64,000 nucleotides of DNA from Myxococcales bacterium (lineage in GTDB: Bacteria; UBA10199; 2-02-FULL-44-16; JAAZCA01), in NCBI GenBank assembly GCA_012513515.1, contig JAAZCA010000029.1:169812-233811 (forward strand), written 5' to 3'. This document shows positions 28,021 to 63,390 of the stretch, in pieces. The notes beneath the pieces were generated by a model that worked only from the letters and a program-made list of their open reading frames with translations, was not told the DNA's origin and ran no database searches. Position numbers and translations under genes: made by a program. Each line of letters starts with the position of its first letter. Position 1 is the stretch's first letter.

Positions 28021-28299
28021 AACCTCTGAAAAGCTAGCTGTAACAATAACTTCGACCATGGAGAATTGAGCATCGACCAAAAGATCAAGAAGCTAGAATC
28101 TAGAAGTGAGAAGCGAGATTTCTACAGGCGAGATTTTTCTAGCTTCTAGCCTCTCGCTTCTAGCTTCTGTTTTTCCCCGGTCACGGCTGTTACTGGATCC
28201 CCGATTACACCACTCGGGGATGACAACCTTTTCGCCATTCGGGGATGACAAGCGCATAGCTTTTAGAGACCCCCTGAATTTGCTGATTTTTCGGAGGTT
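28021..28299. mobile_element. MITE-like composite repeat, copy 1 (truB-rpsO gap)
   Basis: It begins AACCTCTGAAAA and ends TTTTCGGAGGTT, an inverted repeat with one mismatch. Inside are a stretch shared with copy 2 (AACAATAACTTCGACCATGG), palindromic AGAAGCTAGAA / TTCTAGCTTCT modules, a GGATCCCCGATT...CGGGGATGAC hairpin and the tract ending in GAATTTGCTGATTTTTC. No ORF. It lies eight bases after the truB stop and upstream of rpsO. Confidence 0.75.
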
Positions 28300-40059: not shown

Positions 40060-40490
40060 AAATTAGCGAATTTGCCATCCCCGAGCGACGAAAAGGTCGT
40101 CATCTTAATCTTAATCCTAATCTTAACCTTAATAACGATATTTTCGAATATAAGCTAATCTTACAAAATGCTGATCAAAGATCAGCGATCAGGATTCGAC
40201 CCCCTCCCGCAACGACCGTGACTTGTGACTCGTAACTGGTGAACGGTCGGAACGGGATTCCCGTCTGCCCCGCGCGGTAGCGGTGGTTTGCCCCGCGTTA
40301 GCGGCGGCTTACAGCATGCGGGAATGACGGCGTGATTGTCATCCCCGAGTGCTTTAATCGGGGATCCCGTAACAGCCGTGACTGGGAAAAACAGAAGCTA
40401 GAAGCGAAAGGCTAGAAGCTAGAAAAACCTCGCCTGTAAAAATCTCGCTTCTCACTTCTAGATTCTAGTTTCTTGATTTTTCCGCTTTCC
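40060..40490. repeat. Composite dispersed repeat (permease-symporter gap)
   Basis: This 510-base gap (40043-40552) holds no gene. It contains a hexamer track (CTTAATCTTAATCCTAATCT), the AACCTTAATAACGATATTTT stretch shared with 43370-43400, GACTCGTAACTGGTGAACGG, a GCGGCTTACAGCATGCGGGA module, the ATCCCCGAGTGCTTTAATCG hairpin and the AGAAGCTAGAAGCGAAAGGC palindromic module. No terminal AACCTCTGAAAA ends are present, so it is interior material only. Confidence 0.8.
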
Positions 40491-43153: not shown

Positions 43154-43530
43154 AACCTCTGAAAAATCAGCAAATTCAGGGTACCCTCTAAAAACTATGC
43201 GCTTGTCATCCCCGAGTGACAAGAAGGTCGTCATCCCCGAATGGTTCTATCGGGGATCCCGCAAGAACCGTGACTGGTGACTGGTGAACGGTCGGAACCC
43301 CGCGGTAGCGGCGGCTTACAGCGTGCGGGAATGACATTCATGGTGTCATCCCCGAATCTTCGTCTTAACCTTAATAACGATATTTTCGAATATAATCCAG
43401 CCTTACAAAGGGCGGATCAAAGATCAGCGACAATGGACCATTGACCATTGAACAGCTGCGATCGGTGGTTTTGGTCGATGGTCAATCGTCCATGGTCGAA
43501 GTTATTGTTACAGCTAGCTTTTCAGAGGTT
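43154..43530. mobile_element. MITE-like composite repeat, copy 2 (SWIB-hpt gap)
   Basis: The ends AACCTCTGAAAA and TTTTCAGAGGTT are a perfect 12-base terminal inverted repeat. Relative to copy 1 it is inverted: its left end has AAATCAGCAAATTCAGG and its right end TTCGACCATGG-type sequence and GCTAGC. Interior holds CATCCCCGA...CGGGGATCCC, GTGACTGGTGAACGGTCGGA and AACCTTAATAACGATATTTT modules. No ORF. Its right end stops two bases before the hpt stop codon. The rest of the 43010-43532 gap holds nothing else recognisable. Confidence 0.8.
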
Positions 43531-45631: not shown

Positions 45632-45768
45632 TTCGGCCCAAAAGGGGGCCTGAAAACCATCACGGAATTTGAGGGATTTATTGCATAGCGGATCCTTTTG
45701 CAACGCATATGTTGAAAATGGCTTTCCCAGGATAGATTCATTTGCTAATTATCCCTAACGAGCGACCG

Positions 45769-48700
45769 ATGAGAACGCCGGAAAAAGAGAGCTTCGCGGG
45801 ATATACAGTCACGAAGCGGGATATAGCCCGTGGCTGCTCCAGTATGATCCACGAGGGGCTCTCTCACGACGGGAAAATAAGGGTCGCGATAAAAATACTG
45901 CGCCCTTCTAAAATTTCAAAAAACAGAATAGAGCGGTTCAAGGCCGAGTATAAAACTCTCACAAAACTGAACCATCCGAACATAGCCAAAGTCCTTGAAG
46001 CGGGATTCAAGGAGGGCACCCCCTTCATAATTTCAGAGTTTATTGAGGGAAAGCAGATCCTCTCCGCGCTGGCCGGATATGAGATCGGCCGAATGATTCC
46101 GATATTTATAGAGCTGCTAAAGGGGCTGGATTTCATCCATCGAAGCGGAATGCTCCATCTGGATATCAAATCGCAGAACGTATTTGTAAACGCCAACGCA
46201 AAGGGAAATAGGTTAAAGATACTGGATTTCGGCCTGGCGATGCCGGAAAAAGAATATCGTGGAGAATTCGTCGGAAGCCCTTCGACGATGGCCCCCGAAA
46301 TAGCCTTGGGGCTGTCGGAAAAAGTCGGAAAGCGCTCGGACCTGTATTCCGCGGCAGTACTCATGTACCAGTGTTTGTCCAAGGGGAGGCATCCCTTCGA
46401 CAGAACTCTTCAAAAATCGCGAGCTGAACTCATGAAGATGGTGGAAGCGGAAAAGGAAAAGCTCCCCGCGCCGCTGGATAGAGAGATCCCGGGATGGCTG
46501 GAGCTGCTCCTTTCCAGGATGCTCATCTTCGAACCTGAGGAACGGTTCTATGAAAACGCCGCCGGAGTCATACACGCCATCTCTTCAGGAAGGACGTCGG
46601 AAGCATCGCGCACATCAAGGGGTTCGCCCGAGTATCTAGTACCCGATCCGACGAAACTGGTAGGGCTTTCAGAAATTTCAAAAATCCTGACCTCCGAAAT
46701 CGAAAAGAGCACAAGCGGAGATCTGCCGGAAAAGCCGCTGCATATCATATCCGGCGGCCACGGGATGGGAAAAAGCCACATAGTACATTTTCTCAAAACA
46801 TTCGGAGACACGATCTCCGACAGAATATCGATCCACCGAATCTCCTTCCCCTCAGACGATGAGACGCTCAGCGAAAAGATTGCTGAGCTGCGCATATCGA
46901 TATCGGACAATAAGTCCCCAATTCTCTTGCTCATCGACAACCTGGATGCTGCCGAAGGCAAAACACCGATAGAAGCTGAGGTCGAAAGGTTGATCTCCGG
47001 AATTTTTGCCTTCGCTGCAGCGCGTACCGAAAATCCGGAAATATATTCAGAAATAATCCCCACGATCGTGGCAGCGACAGTTACGGAAATACAGAAGGTC
47101 GGATTTCTGAAAGAGATATTGGCTTCAGCGCTAAAACTCCACGAGCTAAAACCATTCACAGCCTCTGATATAACGGAATACCTGGCGGCGACCCCGGCAT
47201 TTTTCAGGCGACAGATCCCATCCGAAGCGACGCAGCACATACTTAAAATAACGGGCGGCATTCCGCTCGAGGTTAAAGAGCTTCTCTCCAAAAACTTTGA
47301 AGGCTTGTTCTCTTTCGATGCCGCAGGAGAAATAATCCTCGATCCCAAGATAATCGCCCCATCCACCTTTAGGCATGGGGCATCTACCGCCTTTGAAAGG
47401 CTCTTGCATAAGATCAAAATTCTGGACCGCGACGAAATCAAGTTGCTTGAGTCGATAGCCTGCTGCACGGCCGCACCGTATCTCGAGGCTCCAAAATTCC
47501 CGCTTTTAAAAAGGGTGACCGGATTGAAAGATATCGAAGAAATTTCTGAAAGGCTGATGCGCGCCGGCATACTGGAGATGGATCGAAAGGATAGGATTAA
47601 ATTCTGTGACGAACATATGCCGGGGATGATCCTGATGAGGATGAACCCTGCGGATAGAAAAAAACTACACTCCGAGCTGGTCAAACATGTCAGCTTAAGG
47701 TGGAAAAATTTTCACACGGCTCACGGCGAGGATGATAAAAAAGCGATCAAAGCCGCAATCACCCTCGGCAAAAAAATGTTGAAGAACCACGGCGACTGCT
47801 CCGCAGCCATCAAGCTTTACACATCAGCTTTGAAAAGAGGATCGGAGGCTCATTGGAAACTCCGCTCGTACATTTCATCCCTAATTGCGGCTGCGGCACT
47901 AAACACCGGAGACCTGACAAGAGCTGGCGAAGCCATTTATTCCGGCAGCAGAATGATACCGGAGGGTGAATATCCTGCATACCGAAGGAGGTTCGCGCTC
48001 CTCGATATCGCCATGGCCCTGAGAGCCGGCACCCTCAATCACGCGCAGCGCCTCATAGAATCATCTCGCCTTATTGCGGCAAAATCCCGCCTGGAGGACT
48101 ACGACCTGGCTTTGAAAAATTACAATGGAAATCTTCTCTATGAGATGGCAATCAGAGATCCGTCCAAAGATGCGAAAAAACTGCTTGAGGCCAGAAAGAT
48201 ATTTGAAGGTTCGAAGTCCATGGAATTCCGACTAGCCCCCCATTCAAGAAAAAAAGTCATGAACAACCTCTTATATTCCGTGCTGACTGCGCAGGGCTTG
48301 TACGAAGAGGCCGCTCGAACTCTTGAATTTGAGATTTCCGGAAATAAACCCGACATATTTCATCTGATACCCGCGTATATGGCAATAGCAGAGGGGTTGC
48401 GAATCTCAGGAAAAACCGGACGCGCCCTTCTTTGGGCCAAAAGGGCGTTGAAGCTGGCCGGCAACGGGAATTCCGGACCGATGCTGGCCTATTCGCATGC
48501 AGTTCTTGCCAACATATTTTATGACATGGACGATTTTCAAAGATGTCTCGCCCACTGCTCCAGCGAACTTGCATCGATAGCATGCCGGTCGGCGCACACG
48601 ACACCAAACTCCATGGCCAGGATATGGTCGATGATGGGACGCTGTCATGGCGAAAGCGGAAATCACAGGAAGGCGATAGTCTATTTCGAGGCGGCCCTGG

Positions 48701-48903
48701 CATCAGCATCGGAGGGATATTTCGCGATGTCGGCATATCTGGGAATGGGCGAAGCCTACCTGTCGCTGGGAAAAAAGAAAACTGCGATGGAATACATAGG
48801 TTGCGCCGAAGCGATGCTAAAGACAATGCCCGTCGATGAGATTTCCAAATCGCACCGGAAACGGGCGAAGCAGGTCAAAAAACTCATCAGGGATCAAATG
48901 TGA
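45769..48903 (+). CDS. Ser/Thr kinase - STAND ATPase - TPR protein, paralogue A
   Basis: About 1044 residues. A protein kinase domain (about 10-275) has K42 in VAIKIL, a catalytic loop HLDIKSQN (130-137; Leu replaces the Arg of HRD), DFG at 153 and APE at 175. The Gly-rich loop is weak (ARGCSSMIHEG). An AAA/STAND-type ATPase follows, with Walker A GGHGMGKS (329-336) and Walker B LLLIDNLD (about 386-393). From about 640 on the protein is a TPR solenoid. A TTG at 45742 could extend it by nine residues; the start is chosen by alignment with paralogue B. It resembles PknK/HstK-like signalling proteins. Its end overlaps the convergent histidine kinase by 17 bases. Confidence 0.9.
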   Translation: MRTPEKESFAGYTVTKRDIARGCSSMIHEGLSHDGKIRVAIKILRPSKISKNRIERFKAEYKTLTKLNHPNIAKVLEAGFKEGTPFIISEFIEGKQILSALAGYEIGRMIPIFIELLKGLDFIHRSGMLHLDIKSQNVFVNANAKGNRLKILDFGLAMPEKEYRGEFVGSPSTMAPEIALGLSEKVGKRSDLYSAAVLMYQCLSKGRHPFDRTLQKSRAELMKMVEAEKEKLPAPLDREIPGWLELLLSRMLIFEPEERFYENAAGVIHAISSGRTSEASRTSRGSPEYLVPDPTKLVGLSEISKILTSEIEKSTSGDLPEKPLHIISGGHGMGKSHIVHFLKTFGDTISDRISIHRISFPSDDETLSEKIAELRISISDNKSPILLLIDNLDAAEGKTPIEAEVERLISGIFAFAAARTENPEIYSEIIPTIVAATVTEIQKVGFLKEILASALKLHELKPFTASDITEYLAATPAFFRRQIPSEATQHILKITGGIPLEVKELLSKNFEGLFSFDAAGEIILDPKIIAPSTFRHGASTAFERLLHKIKILDRDEIKLLESIACCTAAPYLEAPKFPLLKRVTGLKDIEEISERLMRAGILEMDRKDRIKFCDEHMPGMILMRMNPADRKKLHSELVKHVSLRWKNFHTAHGEDDKKAIKAAITLGKKMLKNHGDCSAAIKLYTSALKRGSEAHWKLRSYISSLIAAAALNTGDLTRAGEAIYSGSRMIPEGEYPAYRRRFALLDIAMALRAGTLNHAQRLIESSRLIAAKSRLEDYDLALKNYNGNLLYEMAIRDPSKDAKKLLEARKIFEGSKSMEFRLAPHSRKKVMNNLLYSVLTAQGLYEEAARTLEFEISGNKPDIFHLIPAYMAIAEGLRISGKTGRALLWAKRALKLAGNGNSGPMLAYSHAVLANIFYDMDDFQRCLAHCSSELASIACRSAHTTPNSMARIWSMMGRCHGESGNHRKAIVYFEAALASASEGYFAMSAYLGMGEAYLSLGKKKTAMEYIGCAEAMLKTMPVDEISKSHRKRAKQVKKLIRDQM

Positions 48904-49771
48904 TTTCCCTCAGCATGGGCCACATTTCGAAGGCCGATGTCAGGCGGGATTTGATGCGCGACATGTTGACCGAAGAACAGTCTCTCGCGATGGCGGCCAC
49001 AAAGCTCGTCCTCTCTCCATCGGCACAGTCGAGCCAAAGATCGCCCATGTGCTTCCTGGCCGTTTCCTTCGCCGATGAAAGACCAAACCCGCTGCCACAC
49101 TTCTTCCCCGAGCTGAATCCCCTCTCGAAAATTCGCTCGCGAATCTCATCGGAGATTCCAACTCCGTCATCCGAAACCGAAAATCTGATTTCATCAGCAC
49201 AGGAAGATGCGCAGATTTCCACCAGCCCTCCCCCTTCCGCAGCGGCCTCGATCGCATTTGTAACGAGATTATAAATCAGCGCCGAAATTTCCCCTCGGCG
49301 CAGAATTGCAAAAATGGAATCGGGGCCTATATAGTTAAGATGAACCTTTCTCCTCTCCGCGACAGGAGAAAGTTCCTGAATCACCTCGGAAACTATACCG
49401 GCAAAGTCGCAGCGAACCGGAACTTCATCCTGATCGAAAACTATACAGTTTCTTATCTTGAGAAGGATATCCTCTATCTTCGAATAGGCGCGCTGCGCTA
49501 TCGCTCCTATGTCCTCATCCGGAAGAATCTCAGCGCAGCGGTCAGGACCGACGGCGATGTATTCCCTTATGAAGGAAAGCGGGCCTGAGGCATCATGGGC
49601 GAACTGCCGCATCTTCGCCAAGATATCGTTAAGCGCTCCGCCGGACTCGCAGCTCCAGGCCGAAAGTGAAGAATCGAAGGTTTTACTCACTGCATCGCGA
49701 AAACTTCCCGCCTTGATTTTCAGCTTCAGGCCGGTATCCCTGTGCCTAATTTCATAGATTCTCTGCTTCAT
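48887..49771 (-). CDS. Soluble histidine kinase without sensor domain
   Basis: About 294 residues. The N-terminal 45 residues have no recognisable sensor and no membrane segment. The H-box is QFAHDASGPLSFI with His59; the ATPase has N-box LVTNAIEAAAE, G1 VSDDGVGIS and G2 GSGFGLSSAKE. The start at 49771 has GGGAG ten bases upstream; a longer frame lacks a ribosome site. No response regulator is nearby. It lies between two Ser/Thr kinase-STAND-TPR paralogues and its 3' end overlaps the first, suggesting that one of them provides its input. Confidence 0.85.
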   Translation of the reverse strand: MKQRIYEIRHRDTGLKLKIKAGSFRDAVSKTFDSSLSAWSCESGGALNDILAKMRQFAHDASGPLSFIREYIAVGPDRCAEILPDEDIGAIAQRAYSKIEDILLKIRNCIVFDQDEVPVRCDFAGIVSEVIQELSPVAERRKVHLNYIGPDSIFAILRRGEISALIYNLVTNAIEAAAEGGGLVEICASSCADEIRFSVSDDGVGISDEIRERIFERGFSSGKKCGSGFGLSSAKETARKHMGDLWLDCADGERTSFVAAIARDCSSVNMSRIKSRLTSAFEMWPMLREITFDP

Positions 49772-50003
49772 AACTTGTACGCTCCCGACCGTCGCCATCC
49801 CCATTGGAAAGGACAAACCGGGGAGGAAGTGCAACCATCATGCCACATGCTGTGTAAGTATAAGTAATTGAAAAATCTAGCTAATTTGAAGAGAGAAAAA
49901 GGCGCGGCGGATTCGCATGGGAACTCTCCTCCCCCCTTTTCGGACAAAAAAGGGAAGAAGGGGTTTGAGATCGTAATCCTTATGCGGCCGCGCTGCCGTT
50001 CCA

Positions 50004-50262
50004 ACAATAACTTCGACCATGGACAATTGACCATCGACTGACATCTCTAGCTTCTGTTTTTCCGCCAGTCACCAGTCACGGCTGTTACGGGATCCCCGAT
50101 TAAAGCACTCGGGGATGACGACCACACTGTCATTCCCGCATGCTGTAAGCCGCCGCTACCGCGGGGTTCCGACCGTTCACCAGTAACGAGTCACGGTCGT
50201 TGCGGGGATGACAAGCGTATAGCTTTTAGAGGTGCCCTGAATTTGCTTATTTTTCAGAGGTT
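50004..50262. mobile_element. MITE-like composite repeat, copy 3 (HK-kinase B gap)
   Basis: The right end is TTTTCAGAGGTT, preceded by GAATTTGCTTATT and the AGCTTTTAGAGGTGCCC tract as in copies 1 and 2. The left end starts at AACAATAACTTCGACCATGG without the terminal AACCTCTGAAAA. Interior: GGATCCCCGATTAAAGCACT hairpin module and TAAGCCGCCGCTACCGCGGG. Nearly the same interior occurs at 63196-63390. The remaining gap (49772-50003) has only a C/A-rich imperfect hairpin (about 49930-49965). Confidence 0.75.
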
Positions 50263-50425
50263 GCTTAAATGAAATAATTGATAAGAGAGGTTTCAAAAGT
50301 CCAAAATAAATGTTAGATTTCACCCTCGAAAAAGCGGCATGGCCATCTTTGGGTCAGCGCCAAGGCAGGATCGAAAACGCAGTTGTCGTTGCAAGAGTGG
50401 AATGAAGGACGGGAGAATCCTCGCC

Positions 50426-53400
50426 ATGTCTGAAGCGAACGCGTTTGGCGGTTACATAGTAACCCGGCCTGAGATTGCGCACGGGGGATCGGGACTCGTT
50501 CATGAAGGATCCGCCCCCGATGGCAAACGCCGAGTCGCAATCAAGGTCCTGGACAAGGAACTCATAGAAAGAAATATACAGCGCGCATTAGCGCGAAAGC
50601 ATCCTTCACTCGGAAATCGCCCTCTGGAGATAACTCAAGAGACCAGGCGGGCATACGAGATCAACGTAGAACGTTTCAAGATAGAATACAGAACGCTTCT
50701 CCAACTCGAGCATCCCAATATAGCGAGGGTCTTTGAAATAGGATTCAAGGAGGGCCACTTTTTCATAGTCTCGGAATTCGTCGACGGAAAACCACTCGCG
50801 CAGTACGTAAAGGGGTGGGAACCCTCCGAGATGATTCCACTGTTCGTGCAATTCCTAGAAGGACTCGACTTCATACACAGAAGCGGGCTCATACATCTCG
50901 ATATCAAATCCGACAACATTCTCGTCGAAGAGGTGGAAGGATCCCCGAGGGTGAAGATAATCGACTTCGGCCTCGCTATGACCCCTTCCGAATATAGAGG
51001 AAGCTTCATAGGAACCATTTCTACGATGGCGCCGGAGGTGGCTCTCGGCCTACGCGAAAAGGTGAACTCCAAGTCAGACCTGTATTCGGCAGGGGTGGTC
51101 ATGTACAACTGCATCACCTGGGGAGCTCATCCGTTCGAAAGGAGCGCAAGGGGATCGCGCGACGCCATACGGAAAATGATCGACGGCGAGGAGTACATAT
51201 CGCCGGATCCTCCATCGGCGGCACACAAGCAAAAAGGAAGATTCGTCCCTGACTTTCTGGACAAGATAATCCTGAAGCTTCTTTCATTCGAGCCTGAAAA
51301 TAGGTTCTATCCAAACGCGCGTGCGGTAATAAACGCACTTCGGACTCATATGCCTGAAGCCTTCGGTGCGAAGGGTTCCTCAGAGGCCTCATATCTCCGC
51401 CCACCCGGACTTTCTCGCATAGGCCGCGAAAAGATATGTGACGAAATAGAACCCGATATCGATAGGGTGATTTCATCGGAGATCCCTAAGAATTCGCTCT
51501 ATCACCTGACCGGCCCGGACGGGATCGGCAAATCACATCTCATCTCCTGTCTCAAAAGCACAGCGGAGATGGACGTCGAGAGAATAGCGCTGCATTCAAT
51601 GACATTTCCGATGTCTGATGATCACATGCTCGAGTCGATAGCTCGCCTCGAGCGAGACATGGCGGAAAATTCCAAGCCTATCATCCTCTTCATGGATGAT
51701 CTCCATGAACTCATACAAGGATCGGAAGCGGCCGACAGAGCTCTTAAAACGTTAAAGGGATTGGCATCGCTGTTTGTGGAACGCAGAAAAAATCAGAAAC
51801 TCTATTCCGATCTAGCTCCCGTTCTGATGGTCGCGACATCAAAATCCGGCAGTGCGGTCGCGGATGGTTTGATGCCGGAACAGCTTGAATCGGTAAAATT
51901 CGAGATCCCGCCATTTAAAGCCGCCGATCTGAAGAGATATCTCAAGGCCACGCCGGCGCTCTCCGAAAGGGAAATCTCCTCTGCAACAATAGATCTCCTG
52001 ATAGAACAGACTGCGGGAATACCGCAGGAGATAGTCGAGAGGCTGGAGGAGCTCGACAGCAAAAGTGCGCTTTTCGACGCATGCGGGGAGGTTGTTATTA
52101 CCTCGCAGGAAATATCGCTCCGTCCGGAAAAACCCGCCAGCGGGTCAACGCGGGAGAGACTGCTTGCAAAATTTCACTCCCTCGAACCGGCTGAACGCGA
52201 AGCGGCGGAGATTGCCGCCTGTCTGGCATTCAAGCCCTTTCTTCCCCCTCCATCCGCCTCACTTATCATGAAGCTCTTAGACAGGACCACCTCCGCACAG
52301 ACCATAAGGATGCTTTGCGACAAGGGAATACTGAGGCCTGCCAAGTCGAAAGCGGGAAGCGTTAAAGATCCTTACACCTTTGTCGATGAAGCCTACATGC
52401 CGGGGCTCATCCATTCTGAAATGGAAACCAAACGCCGCGAGATGCTCCACGACGCGATATTTCTTGAACTCGAGAAGCGCGGGAAAAAAAGCGAAGAATT
52501 CCAAAATGAACTCCTCCTTCATCTTGCCTTTTCCAGCGACACCCGGAGGGCGGCATCTTCGGCGATCAAGCTCGGCAGGCGGATGCTAAACCACGAGGGC
52601 AAAGCCGCACTTGCGGTTGAACTCTTAGAGCTCGCGCTCCAAAAGATAGATGCGGAAAACTGGAAATTCCGATCGTATGTTCTGTCCCTCATATCGGGGG
52701 CTCATCTGAATCAGGATAGGTACACTGAGGCGGAACTCACAATAAGAGAGGCGCAGAAAATCACGCGAGAAAAATGCGGTTTTTGGCACGACCAAGTGAC
52801 GTCCCTCGCGATAATAAAAACTCTGCGTGGCGGCGACCTCACTTCCGCAGGCAAGCTCATCGAAAAAGAAAAGAATTCATGTTCCGAATGCGACACGCTC
52901 TTTCGCAAGGCCTTCTTCATGAATTTCGAGGGACAGCTTTTCTACCACAGGGCATATCGCGAACCACAACGTTCGAGGGAGTTGCTCGAAGAGTCAAAAA
53001 AACTTTTTGAAAAGAGCGCTGAGCTCGAGCAGCTCCTCCCTAAAAACCGCGTCGAGCTAATATCGAACAATCTGTTATACTCGGTTCTGATGTCGCTCGG
53101 AAATTATCGGGCGGCTGCTGCTAATCTTGAAAAACAGATCGAAGAAAAAAAGCTCGGCATATATTCGCTAAACTCGGCATACGTTACGCTCGCTGAAATA
53201 TACAGGCTCTCCGGAAACTTCGATAAGGCTCTTCTCTGGGCGAGAAAGGCCCTGAGGCTCGCTGAAAGCAAGCTCGCCGGCTTTCCGCTGCTGCAGGTTC
53301 ATGCGACGCTGGCCAACATATTCTATGATCAGGGCGACTACCCGCGCTGCATGGAGGAATGCAACAAACAGATATCGGCCAGCGCATGCCTGGGCGGTGA

Positions 53401-53824
53401 AAACTACGCCCTCTTTGCGGCACGCGTATGGTCACTGATGGGAAGATGCTGCAACGAGATGGGGGACTACAATAAGGCGATACTATATTTTGAAGCGGCG
53501 CTCGCCGGCGACCGCCGCGACTTCTTCACCATGTCGGCCATGGAAGGGCTTGGCGAAGCCCACTTCGGCAATGGAAATTTCGAAGAGATGGAAAAATGCT
53601 TCGAGGAGGCCGATCGCATGCTTTCTGGAATGCCGGAGGACGTCTCATCGAATTCGCACCGCTATCGAATCCTGCTTCTGCGCGCGCGCGCAAAACTCTC
53701 ATCGGGGGAGACAGACGATCTCGAATCCCTCCTCTCCGGCCTCAAGAAATACTCTCACGGCGACAAGGCGCATGAAGAGGAAATTTCCGAGATCGAAGAA
53801 CGCATGGCAGAAATACTACGGTAA
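50426..53824 (+). CDS. Ser/Thr kinase - STAND ATPase - TPR protein, paralogue B
   Basis: About 1132 residues, with the same order of domains as the protein at 45769-48903. Kinase: Gly loop AHGGSGLVHEG, K40 in VAIKVL, an insertion of about 35 residues after it (45-82), HLDIKSDN (157-164), DFG at 180 and APE at 202. ATPase: Walker A GPDGIGKS (363-370), Walker B LFMDDLHE (421-428). The rest is TPR-like. Both paralogues share HLDIK in place of HRDLK, so they are non-RD kinases. ATGs at 50339 and 50402 are alternative starts; 50426 follows GGGAG and matches paralogue A. Confidence 0.9.
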   Translation: MSEANAFGGYIVTRPEIAHGGSGLVHEGSAPDGKRRVAIKVLDKELIERNIQRALARKHPSLGNRPLEITQETRRAYEINVERFKIEYRTLLQLEHPNIARVFEIGFKEGHFFIVSEFVDGKPLAQYVKGWEPSEMIPLFVQFLEGLDFIHRSGLIHLDIKSDNILVEEVEGSPRVKIIDFGLAMTPSEYRGSFIGTISTMAPEVALGLREKVNSKSDLYSAGVVMYNCITWGAHPFERSARGSRDAIRKMIDGEEYISPDPPSAAHKQKGRFVPDFLDKIILKLLSFEPENRFYPNARAVINALRTHMPEAFGAKGSSEASYLRPPGLSRIGREKICDEIEPDIDRVISSEIPKNSLYHLTGPDGIGKSHLISCLKSTAEMDVERIALHSMTFPMSDDHMLESIARLERDMAENSKPIILFMDDLHELIQGSEAADRALKTLKGLASLFVERRKNQKLYSDLAPVLMVATSKSGSAVADGLMPEQLESVKFEIPPFKAADLKRYLKATPALSEREISSATIDLLIEQTAGIPQEIVERLEELDSKSALFDACGEVVITSQEISLRPEKPASGSTRERLLAKFHSLEPAEREAAEIAACLAFKPFLPPPSASLIMKLLDRTTSAQTIRMLCDKGILRPAKSKAGSVKDPYTFVDEAYMPGLIHSEMETKRREMLHDAIFLELEKRGKKSEEFQNELLLHLAFSSDTRRAASSAIKLGRRMLNHEGKAALAVELLELALQKIDAENWKFRSYVLSLISGAHLNQDRYTEAELTIREAQKITREKCGFWHDQVTSLAIIKTLRGGDLTSAGKLIEKEKNSCSECDTLFRKAFFMNFEGQLFYHRAYREPQRSRELLEESKKLFEKSAELEQLLPKNRVELISNNLLYSVLMSLGNYRAAAANLEKQIEEKKLGIYSLNSAYVTLAEIYRLSGNFDKALLWARKALRLAESKLAGFPLLQVHATLANIFYDQGDYPRCMEECNKQISASACLGGENYALFAARVWSLMGRCCNEMGDYNKAILYFEAALAGDRRDFFTMSAMEGLGEAHFGNGNFEEMEKCFEEADRMLSGMPEDVSSNSHRYRILLLRARAKLSSGETDDLESLLSGLKKYSHGDKAHEEEISEIEERMAEILR

Positions 53825-53879: not shown

Positions 53880-53935
53880 TCCCGTTCCAACCGTTCACCA
53901 GTCACGAGTCACCAGTCACGGCAGTTCCTTACTTT
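53880..53935. repeat. Short dispersed-repeat fragment
   Basis: CCGTTCACCAGTCACGAGTC and CACCAGTCACGG, one module of the dispersed family, between the kinase B stop and the end of the TPR lipoprotein. Confidence 0.65.
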
Positions 53936-54719
53936 TTCGCGCCCTGTTCATATAGTCATCGGCCTCTGCGTCGCGACCGAGGGCTCGGTTCACCCGCGCG
54001 AGGGCATCCAAATCTTTGGAGATCCCCGCAGAATATTCGACCAGCTTGTCTTCAGCAAGAGCACGATCATACCCTTGCAGGGCGGCCTCAAAATCCCCCT
54101 CTTTTTCAGCGAGCCTCCCCAGCGAATAGTGAGATGTCGCGGAAAGGCGGTGAAGTTTTTTAGGAATCGATATCGCCAGCGATTGGGAGAGTTTGTCGCG
54201 AGCAGAGGCAAGCTCTCCCGATTCGATATCGATAAGGGCCTCGTTACTTAGAACGGTCGCGACCCCCTCGCCGTCCTTAGCGTCGCGATATCTCTTCATC
54301 GCTTCTAAAAATGAGCTACGAGCAGATACTAAATCATCTTTTGCCATCTGCGCACTGCCGATATTATTCAAGTTCGCCCCTGCCCCCTTCAAATTTCCTA
54401 TCCTGTCGTTGATCTCCAATGCCTCGCGAAATTTCGTGCAGGCATCGTCGTAACTGCCTGCGACAAGATACAGCTGGCCAAGATTGTTCAGGCTTTCGGC
54501 GACCCCTTCCTCATGATCTATCCTCTCGGATATCGAGAGAGCGCGACCGTAGAACCTGGCGGCATCATCGTAGCGCCCCTGATAGTAAAACTCGTTTCCG
54601 CGAAGGTTGAGGCGCTTAACATCGACCTTTATCGTATCGACCGTGGAAGCTCTCTTTCCGCCGCCACACCCTGCCATTGCTATCGTCAGCAGCGCAGCAA
54701 TTATCATTATCAGCTTCAC
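53916..54719 (-). CDS. TPR lipoprotein
   Basis: A 267-residue protein. GTG at 54719 is preceded by a perfect AAGGAGG at four bases; the longer ATG frame (to 54764) lacks one. The N-terminus MKLIMIIAALLTIAMAGCGG has a lipobox AMAGC (Cys17). At least five TPR units follow (RGNEFYYQGRYDDAARFYGR; LNNLGQLYLVAGSYDDACTK; LNNIGSAQMAKDDLVSARSS). It is probably tethered to a membrane facing the periplasm as a scaffold. It may belong with the upstream TPR kinases functionally or with the Mla genes; neither is proved. Confidence 0.82.
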   Translation of the reverse strand: MKLIMIIAALLTIAMAGCGGGKRASTVDTIKVDVKRLNLRGNEFYYQGRYDDAARFYGRALSISERIDHEEGVAESLNNLGQLYLVAGSYDDACTKFREALEINDRIGNLKGAGANLNNIGSAQMAKDDLVSARSSFLEAMKRYRDAKDGEGVATVLSNEALIDIESGELASARDKLSQSLAISIPKKLHRLSATSHYSLGRLAEKEGDFEAALQGYDRALAEDKLVEYSAGISKDLDALARVNRALGRDAEADDYMNRARKSKELP

Positions 54720-54775
54720 ATAACCTCCTTTTTTTCCGGGAACGCGTACCGTTTGTCTCCCCAATTGGATAAGGT

Positions 54776-54998
54776 TGAGGTTACAGAAGCTAGAGTCTAG
54801 AAGTCAGAAGCGAGATTTCTAATCTCCGCTTTTTCTAGCTTCTAGCCTCTGTTTTTCCCAGTCACGGCTGTTGCGGGATCCCCGATTACAGCACTCGGGG
54901 ATGACACCATGAACGTCATTCCCGCGGTCTTAAGCCGCCGCTACCGCGGGGTTCCAACCGCTCACCAGTCACGAGTCACAAGTCACGGCTTTTACGGC
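54776..54998. repeat. Composite dispersed repeat (TPR lipoprotein-mlaD gap)
   Basis: It contains AGAAGCTAGAGTCTAGAAGT and CTAGCTTCTAGCCTCTG, the GGATCCCCGATTACAGCACT / CGGGGATGAC hairpin, TAAGCCGCCGCTACCGCGGG and CACCAGTCACGAGTCACAAG. A GGTTGAGGTT hexamer pair precedes it. No ORF. Confidence 0.8.
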
Positions 54999-55795
54999 CG
55001 GGCTTCAAACTTGAGCGTCGAGTCCTGTTTTATCTGCTGCTTGATATTTCCGCGCAGCAGAAAACTTTTCTGCAGGGCCAGCGTTACCTTGTTAACCTCT
55101 TCAAGCCCGCGACGCGCCTCGACTATCGCGTCCCTGATCTCAGGACTCGCTTTATCGACCTCGCCAAGAATATGATTCAGATGCCCCATCGCCGAACTCA
55201 ATTTATCGTAAAGATCGCGGCGCTCGAGGAGAAGTTTCATGCTGGAGTCATTTTTCGTCATCGCATCAACTATTCCCTTCGTGGCCGTGCTTACGTTGGC
55301 AAGGGAAAGCATGAGATCCCCTTTGGGATCGCCGAGGGCCGCTATCAGCGAAGTCGCCTGTTCTATCAGGTCATCAAGGCCTGCTGCCTCCGCCCCTTCG
55401 GTCGGAATAAGACTGCCGGGCGCAAGTGCTGGAGCGGCTGGATCGCCGGGGATCAGAGCCATCACAGCAGAGCCTACGATTGGACGCAGAACTCTGACAC
55501 TACTACCTTCCCTGACTCTGTCGGCATACTGATCGAAAAGCTGAATCTGCATCTCTACACGATTATTCGAATCTAGCACAACGCGCCCTATCCGACCGGC
55601 CTCCAGATCGTTGATGACGACGAGCGAGCCTGGCTTCAAACCAGAAGCGCTTTGAAGATTTGCCGTGTAACGAACATACCCCTGAAACCAGCGCTGCCCG
55701 CGTGCGACGAGCATCAGGAGCACGACTACCATCAGTGCGGCGATGATGACGAAAAGGCCGACTATCTTTTGAAGATGTTTGAATTTAAAAATCAT
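54992..55795 (-). CDS. MlaD-like MCE-domain lipid-binding protein
   Basis: A 267-residue protein: N-terminal transmembrane helix (IVGLFVIIAALMVVVLLMLV, about 11-30), one MCE domain (about 38-120, with ASGLKPGSLVVINDLEAGRI) and a helical C-terminal part (about 140-240) that could form the hydrophobic channel. In Mla systems it carries phospholipids between the inner membrane complex and periplasmic carrier. It is the last gene of the mlaE-mlaF-mlaD group; a repeat separates it from mlaF. Confidence 0.85.
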   Translation of the reverse strand: MIFKFKHLQKIVGLFVIIAALMVVVLLMLVARGQRWFQGYVRYTANLQSASGLKPGSLVVINDLEAGRIGRVVLDSNNRVEMQIQLFDQYADRVREGSSVRVLRPIVGSAVMALIPGDPAAPALAPGSLIPTEGAEAAGLDDLIEQATSLIAALGDPKGDLMLSLANVSTATKGIVDAMTKNDSSMKLLLERRDLYDKLSSAMGHLNHILGEVDKASPEIRDAIVEARRGLEEVNKVTLALQKSFLLRGNIKQQIKQDSTLKFEARP

Positions 55796-55839
55796 AATTT
55801 CTCCTCATTCCGGGGACGCGTACCCGCTTCGCGTGAACA

Positions 55840-55978
55840 TACCCCCGCTGATAGTCACGGCAGCTAGTGGATCCCCGTCAACATCATGCGGGGACGACAA
55901 TCACAGCGCCATTCCCGCAGTTGTAGGCGGGAATCCCGTTCCGACCGTTCACCAGTTACGAGTCACAAGTCACGGTTT
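55840..55978. repeat. Composite dispersed repeat (mlaD-mlaF gap)
   Basis: Diverged modules GTGGATCCCCGTCAACATCA / GCGGGGACGAC, CATTCCCGCAGTTGTAGGCG with GGGAATCCCG, and CCGACCGTTCACCAGTTACG. It splits the Mla operon. Confidence 0.75.
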
Positions 55979-56611
55979 TATCTCCACCACCCTATCCACC
56001 AGCGGTTCAAGAAAAGTGAGATCGCCCGAAGCGATGAGACATAGCGCTCCGGCATCCCTCTTTTTTCTCAAAATCTCGGAAAAAAGTTTTTTGTAGCGCC
56101 CGTCCGAGACCTGATTCGGCTCGTCGCAGAAAAATGCGCCCTTGGCGCAAATTTCGGCGCGAAGCAGTGAGACGCGGCGCTTTATGCCATATGAGAGGGC
56201 CGCAGGAATCATCATCGAATACTCGCCGAGCCCGCCTCGCACGATGGCATCAGCTGCAAACTTGGCAGCGGCAGATTTATCTCCCATGGAATATTCCACC
56301 GGCAGCTGTAAATTCCGCTCGACGCTCATATTTGAAATTAAAGCTGCATCCTGAAAATCGAAGCCTGTCTTTCCCCTTAGAGAGTTCATCTCACGGTTGC
56401 CCAGCGACCAAAAATCATCCCCATCGACCCGAATTACACCGCAAATAGGCCGTAGAAGGAGTGAAATAATTTTCAGGAGAGTGCTTTTCCCGCATCCTGA
56501 AGATCCCACGATGCCAACGATCTCTCCCGACTGAAAGCGGTCGGAAAAATCCTCTATCAGAAGACGCCCGCCATCGTACCTAAATGAAACATTTTCAAGG
56601 GAAATCTCCAA
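55970..56611 (-). CDS. MlaF-like ABC ATPase with degenerate motifs
   Basis: A 213-residue ABC protein. Walker A GSSGCGKST (36-44) and the Q-loop near Q86 are good. The signature reads LSYGI (138-142) instead of LSGGM/Q, Walker B is AFFCDEP (158-164), the D-loop is QVSDG and the switch histidine is replaced by glycine (ASGDL, 192-196). It is shorter than MlaF (about 265). Position between mlaE and mlaD supports the role, but ATP hydrolysis may be weak or atypical. Confidence 0.78.
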   Translation of the reverse strand: MEISLENVSFRYDGGRLLIEDFSDRFQSGEIVGIVGSSGCGKSTLLKIISLLLRPICGVIRVDGDDFWSLGNREMNSLRGKTGFDFQDAALISNMSVERNLQLPVEYSMGDKSAAAKFAADAIVRGGLGEYSMMIPAALSYGIKRRVSLLRAEICAKGAFFCDEPNQVSDGRYKKLFSEILRKKRDAGALCLIASGDLTFLEPLVDRVVEIKP

Positions 56612-56623
56612 ATCAAGACTCCT

Positions 56624-57409
56624 TCAGATGTAGAAAAAAAGTGTTATCAATATATTGGACAAAAAGCAGAGGTATATCGATGTAACTACGGCCTTGGTAG
56701 TCACCTGCGGAATCTCGGTAAAGGAATATCTGACTGTGAAACCAGCGTAACAACATATCGTGGCTACGATCACGCCAAAGACTGCGCATTTGACTCCGCT
56801 GACGGCGACGTCCCAGAATCCTATGGCCGCGGAGAGATTGGCGATATAAGTCCCAAAAGGTATATCGACCATGAACCTAGCGAAAAAGTATCCTCCGAAA
56901 AGTGCAATTGTGTTGAAATAAAAGGATAGCGCAGCGATAGCGACCGCAACCCCTATAATCCTAGGAAGAGCGATGAAACGCAGCGGGTTTATTCCCATAG
57001 ATTCTATCGCTTCGACCTCGTGATTTACCGTCATATAACCTATTTCAGTTGAAATTGCGGTGCCGGATCGTCCGATGACGATAAAGGCTGTAAGCAGCGG
57101 ACCGAGCTCCCGGACAACGACTATAACCAGGATAGTGCCAATCGCCGACTCCCCCCCCAATCCGGGAAGTATGGAAAAAGTTTCAAGGATGACGACTCCA
57201 CCGATTATAAGAGCTATGGCAGTGATTATTTTCAAAGCCTCCACACCGGTAAAGAGAATCTGCCGCATGATGATGTCTAAAACCATCGCGGGTGCAACTC
57301 TCCTCTCGCACCATGCGCTTTTTAGGATTAATACAAAAAAAGCCCCTAGCTCCGAAATTTTGGAGAGAGTGGCGATTGATACAGCGCCTGTTCTGTCGAG
57401 AAAAGACAT
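56624..57409 (-). CDS. MlaE-family permease
   Basis: A 261-residue integral membrane protein of the MlaE/DUF140 family with about five or six helices. VIGRSGTAISTEIGYMTVNH and EVEAIESMGINPLRFIALPR are family hallmarks, as is the C-terminal GVKCAVFGVIVATICCYAGF. It is the permease of the lipid transporter. It ends 12 bases before mlaF. No mlaB or mlaC homologue is visible in the window. Confidence 0.93.
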   Translation of the reverse strand: MSFLDRTGAVSIATLSKISELGAFFVLILKSAWCERRVAPAMVLDIIMRQILFTGVEALKIITAIALIIGGVVILETFSILPGLGGESAIGTILVIVVVRELGPLLTAFIVIGRSGTAISTEIGYMTVNHEVEAIESMGINPLRFIALPRIIGVAVAIAALSFYFNTIALFGGYFFARFMVDIPFGTYIANLSAAIGFWDVAVSGVKCAVFGVIVATICCYAGFTVRYSFTEIPQVTTKAVVTSIYLCFLSNILITLFFYI

Positions 57410-58576: not shown

Positions 58577-61243
58577 CTACCTGCTTCTATTCCCGTAATT
58601 GAATGCCTTGGCTATCGACGGAAGAACTATCATAGTCGCAGCAAGACACGCAGCTGATGCTATCGCCATTATCTTCCCGAGACTCGCAATGCCGCGATGC
58701 GATGCGATCACCATCGCTCCGAAACCTATTGCATTCGTAAGAGCTGTAAGAACCACCGCCTTGGCAGTCGAACTAGTCATGGCGGAAAGAGATTTCTCCA
58801 ATCTCAGCCTGTGCACCATATGCACACCGAAATCGACGCCTATTCCGATCAAAATCGGAATCGCAAAAAAGTTTGCCATGTTGAATGGTATGCCGAAAAA
58901 TCCCATTCCGCCGAGAAGCCACAGCAACCCTATCGCAAGAGGAGATACTGCCATGACAGCGGATTTTACGGACCTGAAATCTATAAGGACCAGAACGAAT
59001 ATCACGACAAAAGCGAGTATTGCAGAACGCAAAAATGTTTCGCGCATCATCTTGGCAGATTCATAAACACTTATCGGGGTTCCAAAAACCTCCGGATGCA
59101 CACTCCTTATATCAGAAACAAAATGTTCCAAAGCGACGGGGTCCCAGATATCCTCCTTAGGATAGATAAACATGGAATACCTTCCCTTGGGGCTGACAAA
59201 GCGCCTTAGGATATCCGCCGGAAGATCCTTCTCCGATATAGTAGTAGGATCCATACCACTGGCAAGGATCTCTATGCTGTTGTGCAAATCCTTGAAGAAA
59301 TTTTCCTGAAGCGCAGCAACTCTTTTGACTTCTTCCGACGAGGCGGATGATATTGCGGCGGCGAGGTCAGAAGCCTTCGCACCGAATTTGTCCAACTCCT
59401 CGACAGCATCGGCCCTGCCTGCCTTAAAGGCCTCATTCTGTAGAAGCATCAGGTTATCTGAAAGATCAGTCAGCGACGACGAAAGAGCTGCCGCATCGAG
59501 TTCGCCGGAAAGCGGACTGAAAAGCAGATTTGCAAAGGCCGGGGCTATACCTTCAATTATCTGAATTTTTGCAAGCTGGTGTTCAGGGACTATCCGCTCA
59601 ACATCATCAACCTTTCTCACGCTTGGCCGCATCTCGAATTCTTTTGCCAGCTCGTGCGACTTCTGAGCGCTCTCCGTCACCGCCCTGGCAAACCAGGTTG
59701 TCTCCGAAGACTTCTCCATTATGATATGTTCATACTTTACTGATTCCAGACCATCTGCCTGTAAGTTAAGCAGGTTGTTATCGAATCCGGTCTTAGGCGC
59801 AAAAACGACCGCTACCACGCTGAGGATGAGAGCCGCAATCCCAAGCACCCATGTTTTGCGATAAGCAAAAGAAAGATATGGCATCGCGAATGGTTTCACC
59901 TTCTTGAGATCCATCGGCGCGCGTCTTCTGTCGCGTATAATGATCATGGCCGGCAGAACGATCAACATACTGGTGAGGCAGAGCAGTATTCCGCTTGCGG
60001 CTATGAATCCTAGCTGGGCGAGCGCAGTGAAATCCGTCCACATGATGGTTAAAAATGCCGCGGATGTGGTAAGAGCGCTGGTAAGATCTGCCCTTCCTGA
60101 AGTCGCAAGCGCTTTAGCGATGGAGGAATCTATCTCCCCGCTTTCGGACAGATACTCCTGATATCTGGCAACTATATGTATCGCATATTCGATCGAGGCG
60201 CCAATCAGGATAAGAGTGAAGACTATCGATAGAATATTGAGCGTTCCATAGACGACCGATACAAGGCCGAAGGTCCAGGATATCCCCATTATAAGCGATG
60301 TCATCGCAAGCATGGGCCTGCTGAAGCTTCCGAAGAAGAGGACGAAGAGCATTCCCACAAGTACAATGGCAAGAAGTGTGGCACGCGTCGTATCGCGGTC
60401 GGATGTTTGCATCTCGTCGGCTGAAAGCACCGGCCTTCCAGTAAGCCCAGCACTGATGTCGGCAAAATCCGACTCGCTCTTCGTCTGTTTTATCGCGGCA
60501 CGAATATCGGCCAGCGGCTTTTCTATCACTGACATCGTCGTAAAATCTTTGTCAGGCATGATCATGATGAGATACAGATCGCCATTTCTGTAATAGCCGT
60601 CGGAATCGAAGGTCTCATCCCCTCCGAAAAAAACCGATTCGAGCCCTGCTCCAGAAGTTTTACCGCCGGCAAGCGCAGCGGAAATATTATCCAGCATGCT
60701 GTCGATAAAAGTGAAGCCCTGTGAGAGTTTTCCCTCGTCATCTTTTGAAACAGGTTCTCTTACTTTCGAGGTGAGGGCGCTTATGAGTTCAGCAAAACTA
60801 TGCCAGCTGGCTATATTTTTTGCGGAAAAGGCCCCCTCCGTGAGCATCCCCTTGAGAGTCGTAAGCTGGTCGGTAGTCAGATACAGGAGAAAATTCTTTT
60901 CGAGCACAGGGTTTTCTATCTTCCATATCACCTGGCTGAGTCCATCGATCCCATGAAGCCGCCCCGCAAGCGAGGAAATGAAACGCTTTGCCCTTTCAGG
61001 ATTTCCCTCCGATTCGACCACCACATAGAGATATTCCTCGTCCCCGAACTCATCAAGAAAATCGAGATAGCGCCTGCTGTAATCGAGGTCGCGAGAGACG
61101 AGATCATCCTGGTTGGCGTTCAGCTTCAGGGTCAATGACGCATATACTGCGGAAAAAACCGTCAAAAGGAGCGCGGCTACGACTATCTTCCATGGATGCG
61201 CCGACACAAATCCGGCAATCGATTTAAAACATCTGGTTTTCAT
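58577..61243 (-). CDS. MMPL/RND-type lipid exporter, HpnN-like
   Basis: An 888-residue protein with two halves, each with one N-terminal helix, a large periplasmic loop and five clustered helices: SSD-like GTLNILSIVFTLILIGASIE and the second half GIPFNMANFFAIPILIGIGV with DFGVHMVHRLR. The periplasmic parts contain long helices. MMPL proteins export lipids; length and topology recall the hopanoid exporter HpnN. It follows dxs by 18 bases, linking it to isoprenoid supply (inference). No squalene-hopene cyclase gene is in view. Confidence 0.82.
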   Translation of the reverse strand: MKTRCFKSIAGFVSAHPWKIVVAALLLTVFSAVYASLTLKLNANQDDLVSRDLDYSRRYLDFLDEFGDEEYLYVVVESEGNPERAKRFISSLAGRLHGIDGLSQVIWKIENPVLEKNFLLYLTTDQLTTLKGMLTEGAFSAKNIASWHSFAELISALTSKVREPVSKDDEGKLSQGFTFIDSMLDNISAALAGGKTSGAGLESVFFGGDETFDSDGYYRNGDLYLIMIMPDKDFTTMSVIEKPLADIRAAIKQTKSESDFADISAGLTGRPVLSADEMQTSDRDTTRATLLAIVLVGMLFVLFFGSFSRPMLAMTSLIMGISWTFGLVSVVYGTLNILSIVFTLILIGASIEYAIHIVARYQEYLSESGEIDSSIAKALATSGRADLTSALTTSAAFLTIMWTDFTALAQLGFIAASGILLCLTSMLIVLPAMIIIRDRRRAPMDLKKVKPFAMPYLSFAYRKTWVLGIAALILSVVAVVFAPKTGFDNNLLNLQADGLESVKYEHIIMEKSSETTWFARAVTESAQKSHELAKEFEMRPSVRKVDDVERIVPEHQLAKIQIIEGIAPAFANLLFSPLSGELDAAALSSSLTDLSDNLMLLQNEAFKAGRADAVEELDKFGAKASDLAAAISSASSEEVKRVAALQENFFKDLHNSIEILASGMDPTTISEKDLPADILRRFVSPKGRYSMFIYPKEDIWDPVALEHFVSDIRSVHPEVFGTPISVYESAKMMRETFLRSAILAFVVIFVLVLIDFRSVKSAVMAVSPLAIGLLWLLGGMGFFGIPFNMANFFAIPILIGIGVDFGVHMVHRLRLEKSLSAMTSSTAKAVVLTALTNAIGFGAMVIASHRGIASLGKIMAIASAACLAATMIVLPSIAKAFNYGNRSR

Positions 61244-63195: not shown

Positions 63196-63390
63196 CGACC
63201 ATGAACAATTGACCATCGACCGACATCTCTAGCTTCTGTTTTTCCGCCAGTCACCAGTTACGGTTGTTACGGGATCCCCGATTAAAGCACTCGGGGATGA
63301 CGACCATACTGTCATTCCCGCATGATTTAAGCCGCCGCTACCGCGGGGTTCCGACCGTTCACCAGTTACGAGTCACCAGTCACGGCTTTT
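63196..63390. repeat. Composite dispersed repeat (WecA-like-dxs gap)
   Basis: A near copy of 50025-50210: GACATCTCTAGCTTCTGTTT, GGATCCCCGATTAAAGCACT with CGGGGATGAC, TAAGCCGCCGCTACCGCGGG and GTTCACCAGTTACGAGTCAC. It lacks the AACCTCTGAAAA ends. It overlaps the last codons of the WecA-like gene at its right. Confidence 0.8.

Follow-up and report, generated by a model that had tools for sequence, protein, structure and literature searches.

Two kinase-STAND-TPR proteins around a soluble histidine kinase: probably a reduced form, with a local duplication, of a co-inherited signalling module

The locus and its three proteins

In a 64,000-nucleotide stretch of contig JAAZCA010000029.1 from a Myxococcales bacterium (the window; positions count from its first letter), two long genes for proteins with a kinase, a STAND NTPase and a TPR solenoid (the giants) flank a gene for a soluble histidine kinase (HK). 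Giant 1 lies on the plus strand at 45769..48903, with an ATG at 45769 and an alternative TTG at 45742, and comprises a Hanks-type kinase (~45790-46611), a STAND NTPase (~46633-47709) and a TPR solenoid (~47710-48864). The HK is on the minus strand at 48887..49771 if read from its ATG, or to 49834 from a TTG, and its 3' end overlaps that of giant 1 by 17 bases (48887..48903), as an earlier note on this DNA had reported. Beyond a spacer of 504 bp (49835..50338) follows giant 2, on the plus strand at 50339..53824 (alternative ATG at 50426), with its kinase at ~50420-51364, STAND NTPase at ~51374-52498 and TPR solenoid at ~52499-53758. The earlier note called the HK gene convergent, which is correct towards giant 1; from giant 2 it is divergent. 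The host genome, G000 in our numbering, comprises 1.79 Mb and is 99.3% complete. Comparisons are based on a scan over 60 relatives, including the 46 genomes of its class that were reached.

The giants are 37% identical over 1093 alignment columns. Pfam identifies Pkinase (1e-35 and 1e-32) and TPRs in both, plus an AAA match in giant 2, and both carry Walker A (GPDGIGKS and GGHGMGKS) and Walker B (FMDDLH and LIDNLD) motifs, which are present in all eight aligned giants. An AlphaFold model of giant 2, built from five sequences (mean pLDDT 72.5, pTM 0.48), is good in the STAND and TPR parts and of low confidence in the kinase part. Of the structures in the PDB it matches 6mfv best (E = 1.8e-9, with a high root-mean-square deviation), which is a STAND protein carrying a TPR sensor. 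From the Walker motifs and this model, both giants are classified as predicted STAND NTPases with a TPR sensor, and Pfam, motifs and model agree with the kinase-STAND-TPR order previously proposed for the pair. The β3 (VAIK) Lys, αC Glu, catalytic Asp, Asn and DFG are all retained in both, so that by their catalytic residues both are predicted Hanks-type kinases; the glycine loop of giant 1 is degraded (IARGCSSMIH). The highest 19-residue hydrophobicity in the giants and the HK is 1.36 on the Kyte-Doolittle scale, and therefore a transmembrane helix is not expected in any of the three, consistent with the HK having been described as soluble. Membership of the anti-phage defence kinases (PD-T4-6, MADS6) was considered for the giants and rejected, as the PADLOC and NCBIfam matches are confined to the kinase domain.

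Both giants have the HLDIKSxN catalytic loop noted before (HLDIKSQN at 46156..46179 and HLDIKSDN at 50894..50917, both on the plus strand), and both are non-RD kinases, with Leu in place of the Arg that precedes the catalytic Asp. This replacement had been taken to suggest control other than activation-loop phosphorylation in this pair. It is present, but it is not a mark of the pair, because it is fixed in all eight aligned giants and because loops lacking this Arg are frequent both inside the class, where other kinases have HYD, HFD or HLD, and outside it, where the HLD pattern recurs across many phyla among the matches listed.

The HK matches Pfam HATPase_c (2e-19; ~48995-49285), while HisKA stays below threshold, with a weak HisKA match in a relative (L076). 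In alignment its H-box, N, G1, F and G2 boxes are intact, with the phospho-acceptor His codon at 49595-49597, and HK structures match it in phmmer from residue ~53. It is accordingly predicted to be a histidine kinase with normal catalytic boxes. Residues 23-64 form a small domain of ~42 amino acids (49643..49768, minus strand) in common with two related HKs of genome G026 (L081, L082). A hidden Markov model built from the N-termini of those two alone, without the window HK, matched the window HK at 6e-9 and otherwise just repeat copies of the same genes; the region lies largely outside the columns used for the HK tree. The HK had been called sensorless, which is not quite accurate in view of this N-terminal domain. 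No receiver domain was found among the part of the window's genes that was scanned.

A conserved set of partners in related genomes

The clade of giants is found, by scan and trees, in eight of the 46 class genomes (G000, G001, G006, G007, G026, G033, G036 and G038). Many other kinase-STAND-TPR proteins occur in the scanned relatives, and the giant clade is distinct from them in trees. Among the matches listed from GTDB species representatives, full-length relatives are found only in this class, and the similarity in other phyla is mainly to the kinase domain. The positive genomes span five families (f1, f3, f5, f15 and f17), and close relatives, for example G002 and G003, are negative.

When 40 HKs of the class are placed in one tree, the window HK groups with seven from G026, G038, G033, G007 and G001 (clade of eight, support 99/92), and the clade of the other seven is stable when the long-branched window HK is left out (Shimodaira-Hasegawa-like approximate likelihood ratio test support of 95). 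Against a profile of the clade, its members reach 285-362 bits and the next HK in any genome 196, a gap that arises partly by construction, the profile having been built from the same members. This HK clade is present in six of the eight giant-bearing genomes and in none of the 38 others (hypergeometric probability 3e-6), and the pseudokinase described below in seven of the eight and again none of the 38 (1.5e-7); both probabilities ignore shared ancestry. Because of this distribution, and because the clade HK adjoins the module in G038 and G026, we consider the HK to be associated with this kinase family, as the earlier note had supposed, and the window HK is very probably a member of a giant-associated module. 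HKs near giants on contigs C67 of G026 and C60 of G036 were considered as the same partner and rejected, since they belong to other HK clades.

The usual neighbour of the giant in relatives is a kinase homologue of ~330 amino acids. In nine of nine aligned homologues the VAIK Lys is lost and the catalytic Asp is replaced by Asn (HLN or HGN), and they are predicted to be pseudokinases because these two residues are lost. In trees they are the sister clade of the kinase domains of the giants. A PP2C phosphatase gene is divergent from the pseudokinase and giant pair in G001 (twice) and G006, and lies beside the pair in G007; G033 has an additional pseudokinase, and close to it a PP2C on the opposite strand. 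G038 has the HK divergent from pseudokinase and giant, at the position of the PP2C in G001 and G006, and its PP2C is ~13 kb away. In G026 PP2C and HK lie together on one strand, divergent from the pseudokinase, and at a second locus an HK is followed by a PP2C. The conserved architecture predicted from these neighbourhoods is one giant with one pseudokinase, and with a PP2C and/or HK divergent from them. A search of the literature for systems pairing a pseudokinase with a PP2C gave no relevant result.

The C-termini of the HKs and PP2Cs resemble one another. The clade HKs end in EITFDP, EVTLDP..., DDTLDPM or DDTLDWE, and the module PP2Cs in EDTLDFE, EDTLNFE, DDTLI, EITIE or EETIR. A strict version of this pattern occurs in 6 of 8 HKs and 6 of 9 PP2Cs, compared with 20 of 417 background open reading frames (four of them being copies of module genes); because the sequences had been inspected before the motif was drawn up, and because family members are related, the shared tails are a lead and not a result. 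In the window HK the tail, chosen by the same post hoc motif, is REITFDP (48890..48910, minus strand), mostly within the overlap with giant 1. The acidic Thr tail may be a phospho-acceptor or docking site.

Several further features of these neighbourhoods were observed. In G001 (C9:66834-108235; L073, L074 and L075) there is a mirror-image duplication: a middle segment is flanked by two oppositely oriented sets of HK, subtilase, giant, pseudokinase and PP2C; an 858-aa neighbour in this genome matches no Pfam family. Large subtilase-FG-GAP proteins with lipoprotein-like signal sequences, often adjoining beta-helix proteins, recur beside these kinases and HKs (L074:15740-18664, L076:14199-17234, L083, L192, L199, L209 and G000:C41). 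Near the G006 module, L077:7855-9492 encodes an FHA-sigma54 activator, a possible reader of phospho-Thr. With 12 matches to FHA domains, possible phospho-Thr readers, in the window genome, FHA genes are too common to be informative on whether such a protein is a general partner of the module.

Duplication and loss in the window genome

In the tree, giant 1 pairs with giant 2 (100/100), and the two giants of G001 form the sister group of this pair (100/100). Giants 1 and 2 are therefore placed as a tandem duplication private to the window genome, in which giant 1, with a branch length of 1.34 compared with 0.55 for giant 2, is estimated to evolve ~2.4 times faster. The pseudokinase was found nowhere in the whole window genome, and no remnant of it was found in the spacer between HK and giant 2, its place in relatives. 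Because of these two absences we term the locus a reduced copy. The module PP2C is likewise absent from the window genome. On these sequence comparisons, the locus is best described as a reduced, locally duplicated copy of a co-inherited signalling module, and not as a full member.

The sole PP2C of the genome, on contig C40, was considered as a displaced part of the module and rejected, as it scores like a PP2C of which most genomes of the class carry a single copy. The idea that giant 1 succeeded the pseudokinase is unsupported, as it lies on the other side of the HK and keeps Lys and Asp. A subtilase of the recurrent family survives in the window genome, filling a 3.1-kb contig of its own (C41).

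Other features of the locus are as follows. Scans for promoters and terminators gave results near chance. The spacer between HK and giant 2 holds a dispersed intergenic repeat (~50014-50206; up to 95.6% identity over 181 bases among copies), with similar stretches in the window near 63196-63376, 40206-40402, 43154-43336, 54858-54979 and 28180-28299. Downstream, a TPR protein with a lipoprotein-like N-terminus (MAGCGGG) is encoded at 53916-54764, convergent with giant 2, followed by MlaD, ABC and MlaE genes and an HpnN-like RND transporter (54992-57409 and 58577-61243) that adjoin dxs.

Known systems, proposed mechanism and alternatives

Hanks-type kinases acting with HKs have precedents in other bacteria. 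DegS of Bacillus subtilis and the kinases YbdM and YabT are not known to form one gene module, and YbdM and YabT are not known to carry STAND-TPR parts. In vitro the cytosolic HK DegS is a substrate of both kinases, and treatment with YbdM raises phosphotransfer, so that in this case the output of a cytosolic HK is tuned by Ser/Thr phosphorylation from Hanks kinases (PMC3033389). In Myxococcus xanthus, PktA5 and EspB may interact with the HK EspA, which is thus thought to cooperate with Ser/Thr kinases; the likeness is by description, and EspA, unlike the window HK, is a hybrid HK with a receiver domain (PMC4320627). On the side of the giants, STAND proteins switch from an ADP- to an ATP-bound state and assemble upon inducer binding, and PknK of Mycobacterium tuberculosis is counted among them (PMC4381067). 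PknK likewise has an N-terminal Hanks kinase followed by a MalT-like/STAND ATPase, and the passages on it name no dedicated HK, pseudokinase or PP2C partner (PMC4381067; PMC1262709). MalT has a TPR-type sensor, as do the giants. The giants form their own clade, full-length in one class only among the matches listed, and the likeness to PknK is one of architecture only.

The cyanobacterial HstK-type proteins, with which the earlier note compared the locus, carry kinase, P-loop ATPase and HK modules in a single chain, whereas in the window the modules are spread over three genes, and the HK is soluble, encoded separately and equipped with an N-terminal domain of its own. The comparison stands as an analogy, and single chains of this kind do exist in the class, namely L213:2993-8185 and L214:1162-6423, of ~1750 amino acids, with the order kinase-AAA_16-(GAF)-HisKA-HATPase (in L214, Pkinase-AAA_16-GAF-HisKA-HATPase). 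These fusions belong to other lineages of the class, and neither the giant clade nor the HK clade includes them. Two further proteins of the class, L200:7562-12562 and L187:6673-11385, have the same N-terminal kinase-ATPase-TPR order as the giants, fused to a sigma-54 activator (with a GAF domain too in L200), and form a separate kinase clade.

The explanation we prefer, with a probability of roughly one half, is that the giant works as a STAND-gated kinase resembling PknK and MalT, with a dedicated HK as its target, and that the window locus is a reduced, duplicated copy of such a module. The TPR solenoid would sense a ligand or a partner protein, and exchange of ADP for ATP in the STAND core would open the protein and let it oligomerise as in MalT, so that the clustered kinase domains would be activated by proximity, without the RD arginine. 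The pseudokinase, where kept, would be an allosteric partner of the giant. The active giant would phosphorylate Ser/Thr residues of its dedicated HK, perhaps the Thr of the acidic C-terminal tail, and this would tune the HK's autokinase activity, or its transfer of phosphate to a response regulator whose gene lies elsewhere; where a PP2C is kept, it would reverse the phosphorylation. Among the conserved partners the HK is most likely the target, by analogy, because Hanks kinases phosphorylate DegS and a Ser/Thr kinase complex may contact EspA; we infer only tentatively that the kinase acts on the HK rather than the reverse. A more specific and unlikely version is an undescribed cytoplasmic circuit of STAND-gated Ser/Thr kinase, dedicated pseudokinase, PP2C and soluble HK, in which HK and PP2C would both be addressed by the giant through the acidic Thr tail that they share, as phospho-acceptor or docking site.

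A number of observations weigh against a dedicated HK. The earlier note had set beforehand, as speaking against its proposal, that giants be widespread without an HK; this is not so, though G006 and G036 have giant and pseudokinase with no clade HK, and the HK is thus not obligatory. The clade HK adjoins kinase genes only in the window, in G038 and in G026 (there the pseudokinase); it lies 10-12 kb from the giants in G001, and on separate contigs in G033 and G007. The branch of the window HK is very long (3.1), the tail motif is post hoc and only partly matched in G038 and G033, and the related genomes are non-independent samples, many of them fragmented metagenome-assembled genomes.

These points bear on three other explanations. 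The HK could be an orphan two-component kinase that stands here by chance, co-inherited with the giants on a mobile or variable stretch and doing no joint work with them. No response regulator or fixed spacing was seen, the clade HK is missing from G006 and G036, only scattered members of the class have the module, and dispersed repeats lie between genes, all as this would predict; the distribution of 6/8 against 0/38, which holds even where HK and giant are on different contigs, and the repeated adjacency of HK to pseudokinase and PP2C make it improbable. If the HK were instead upstream, it would sense a cytoplasmic signal and control the giants, by binding the TPRs or as a phosphatase- or adaptor-like partner in place of the PP2C, and would not be their substrate. 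That the HK of G038 occupies the place that PP2C has in G001 and G006, divergent from pseudokinase and giant, and that HK and PP2C have tail residues in common, as if docking on the same partner, fit this order of events. We regard it as unlikely, since the catalytic boxes are intact and those of a normal HK, and the HK is not a simple replacement of PP2C, both being side by side in G026 and a PP2C being ~13 kb away in G038.

The functional unit proposed in the earlier note, duplicate receptors around a shared HK, would make the locus a compact signal integrator, with two receptors of different specificity. Two intact giants do flank one HK in the window, and the divergence of giant 1 is what a new specificity would call for. 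We consider this very improbable, and the proposal is not borne out: the duplication is private to this genome, so that two giants with one HK occur only here and the conserved set elsewhere is one giant with one pseudokinase, giant 1 evolves at more than twice the rate of giant 2, and the degraded glycine loop is in giant 1.

The module is a real and, as far as searches show, undescribed variant of STAND-kinase signalling; what is new in it lies above all in the conserved pseudokinase partner, in an HK inherited along with the giant, and in the Thr tails common to HK and PP2C. What is known of cross-talk between Hanks-type kinases and two-component systems in bacteria comes mainly from isolated examples. 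A giant, a pseudokinase, a phosphatase and a specific HK that are kept together across several families would make this cross-talk testable with defined partners, and the Thr of the HK and PP2C tails offers concrete residues to start from. The module would also add a conserved bacterial pair of kinase and pseudokinase.

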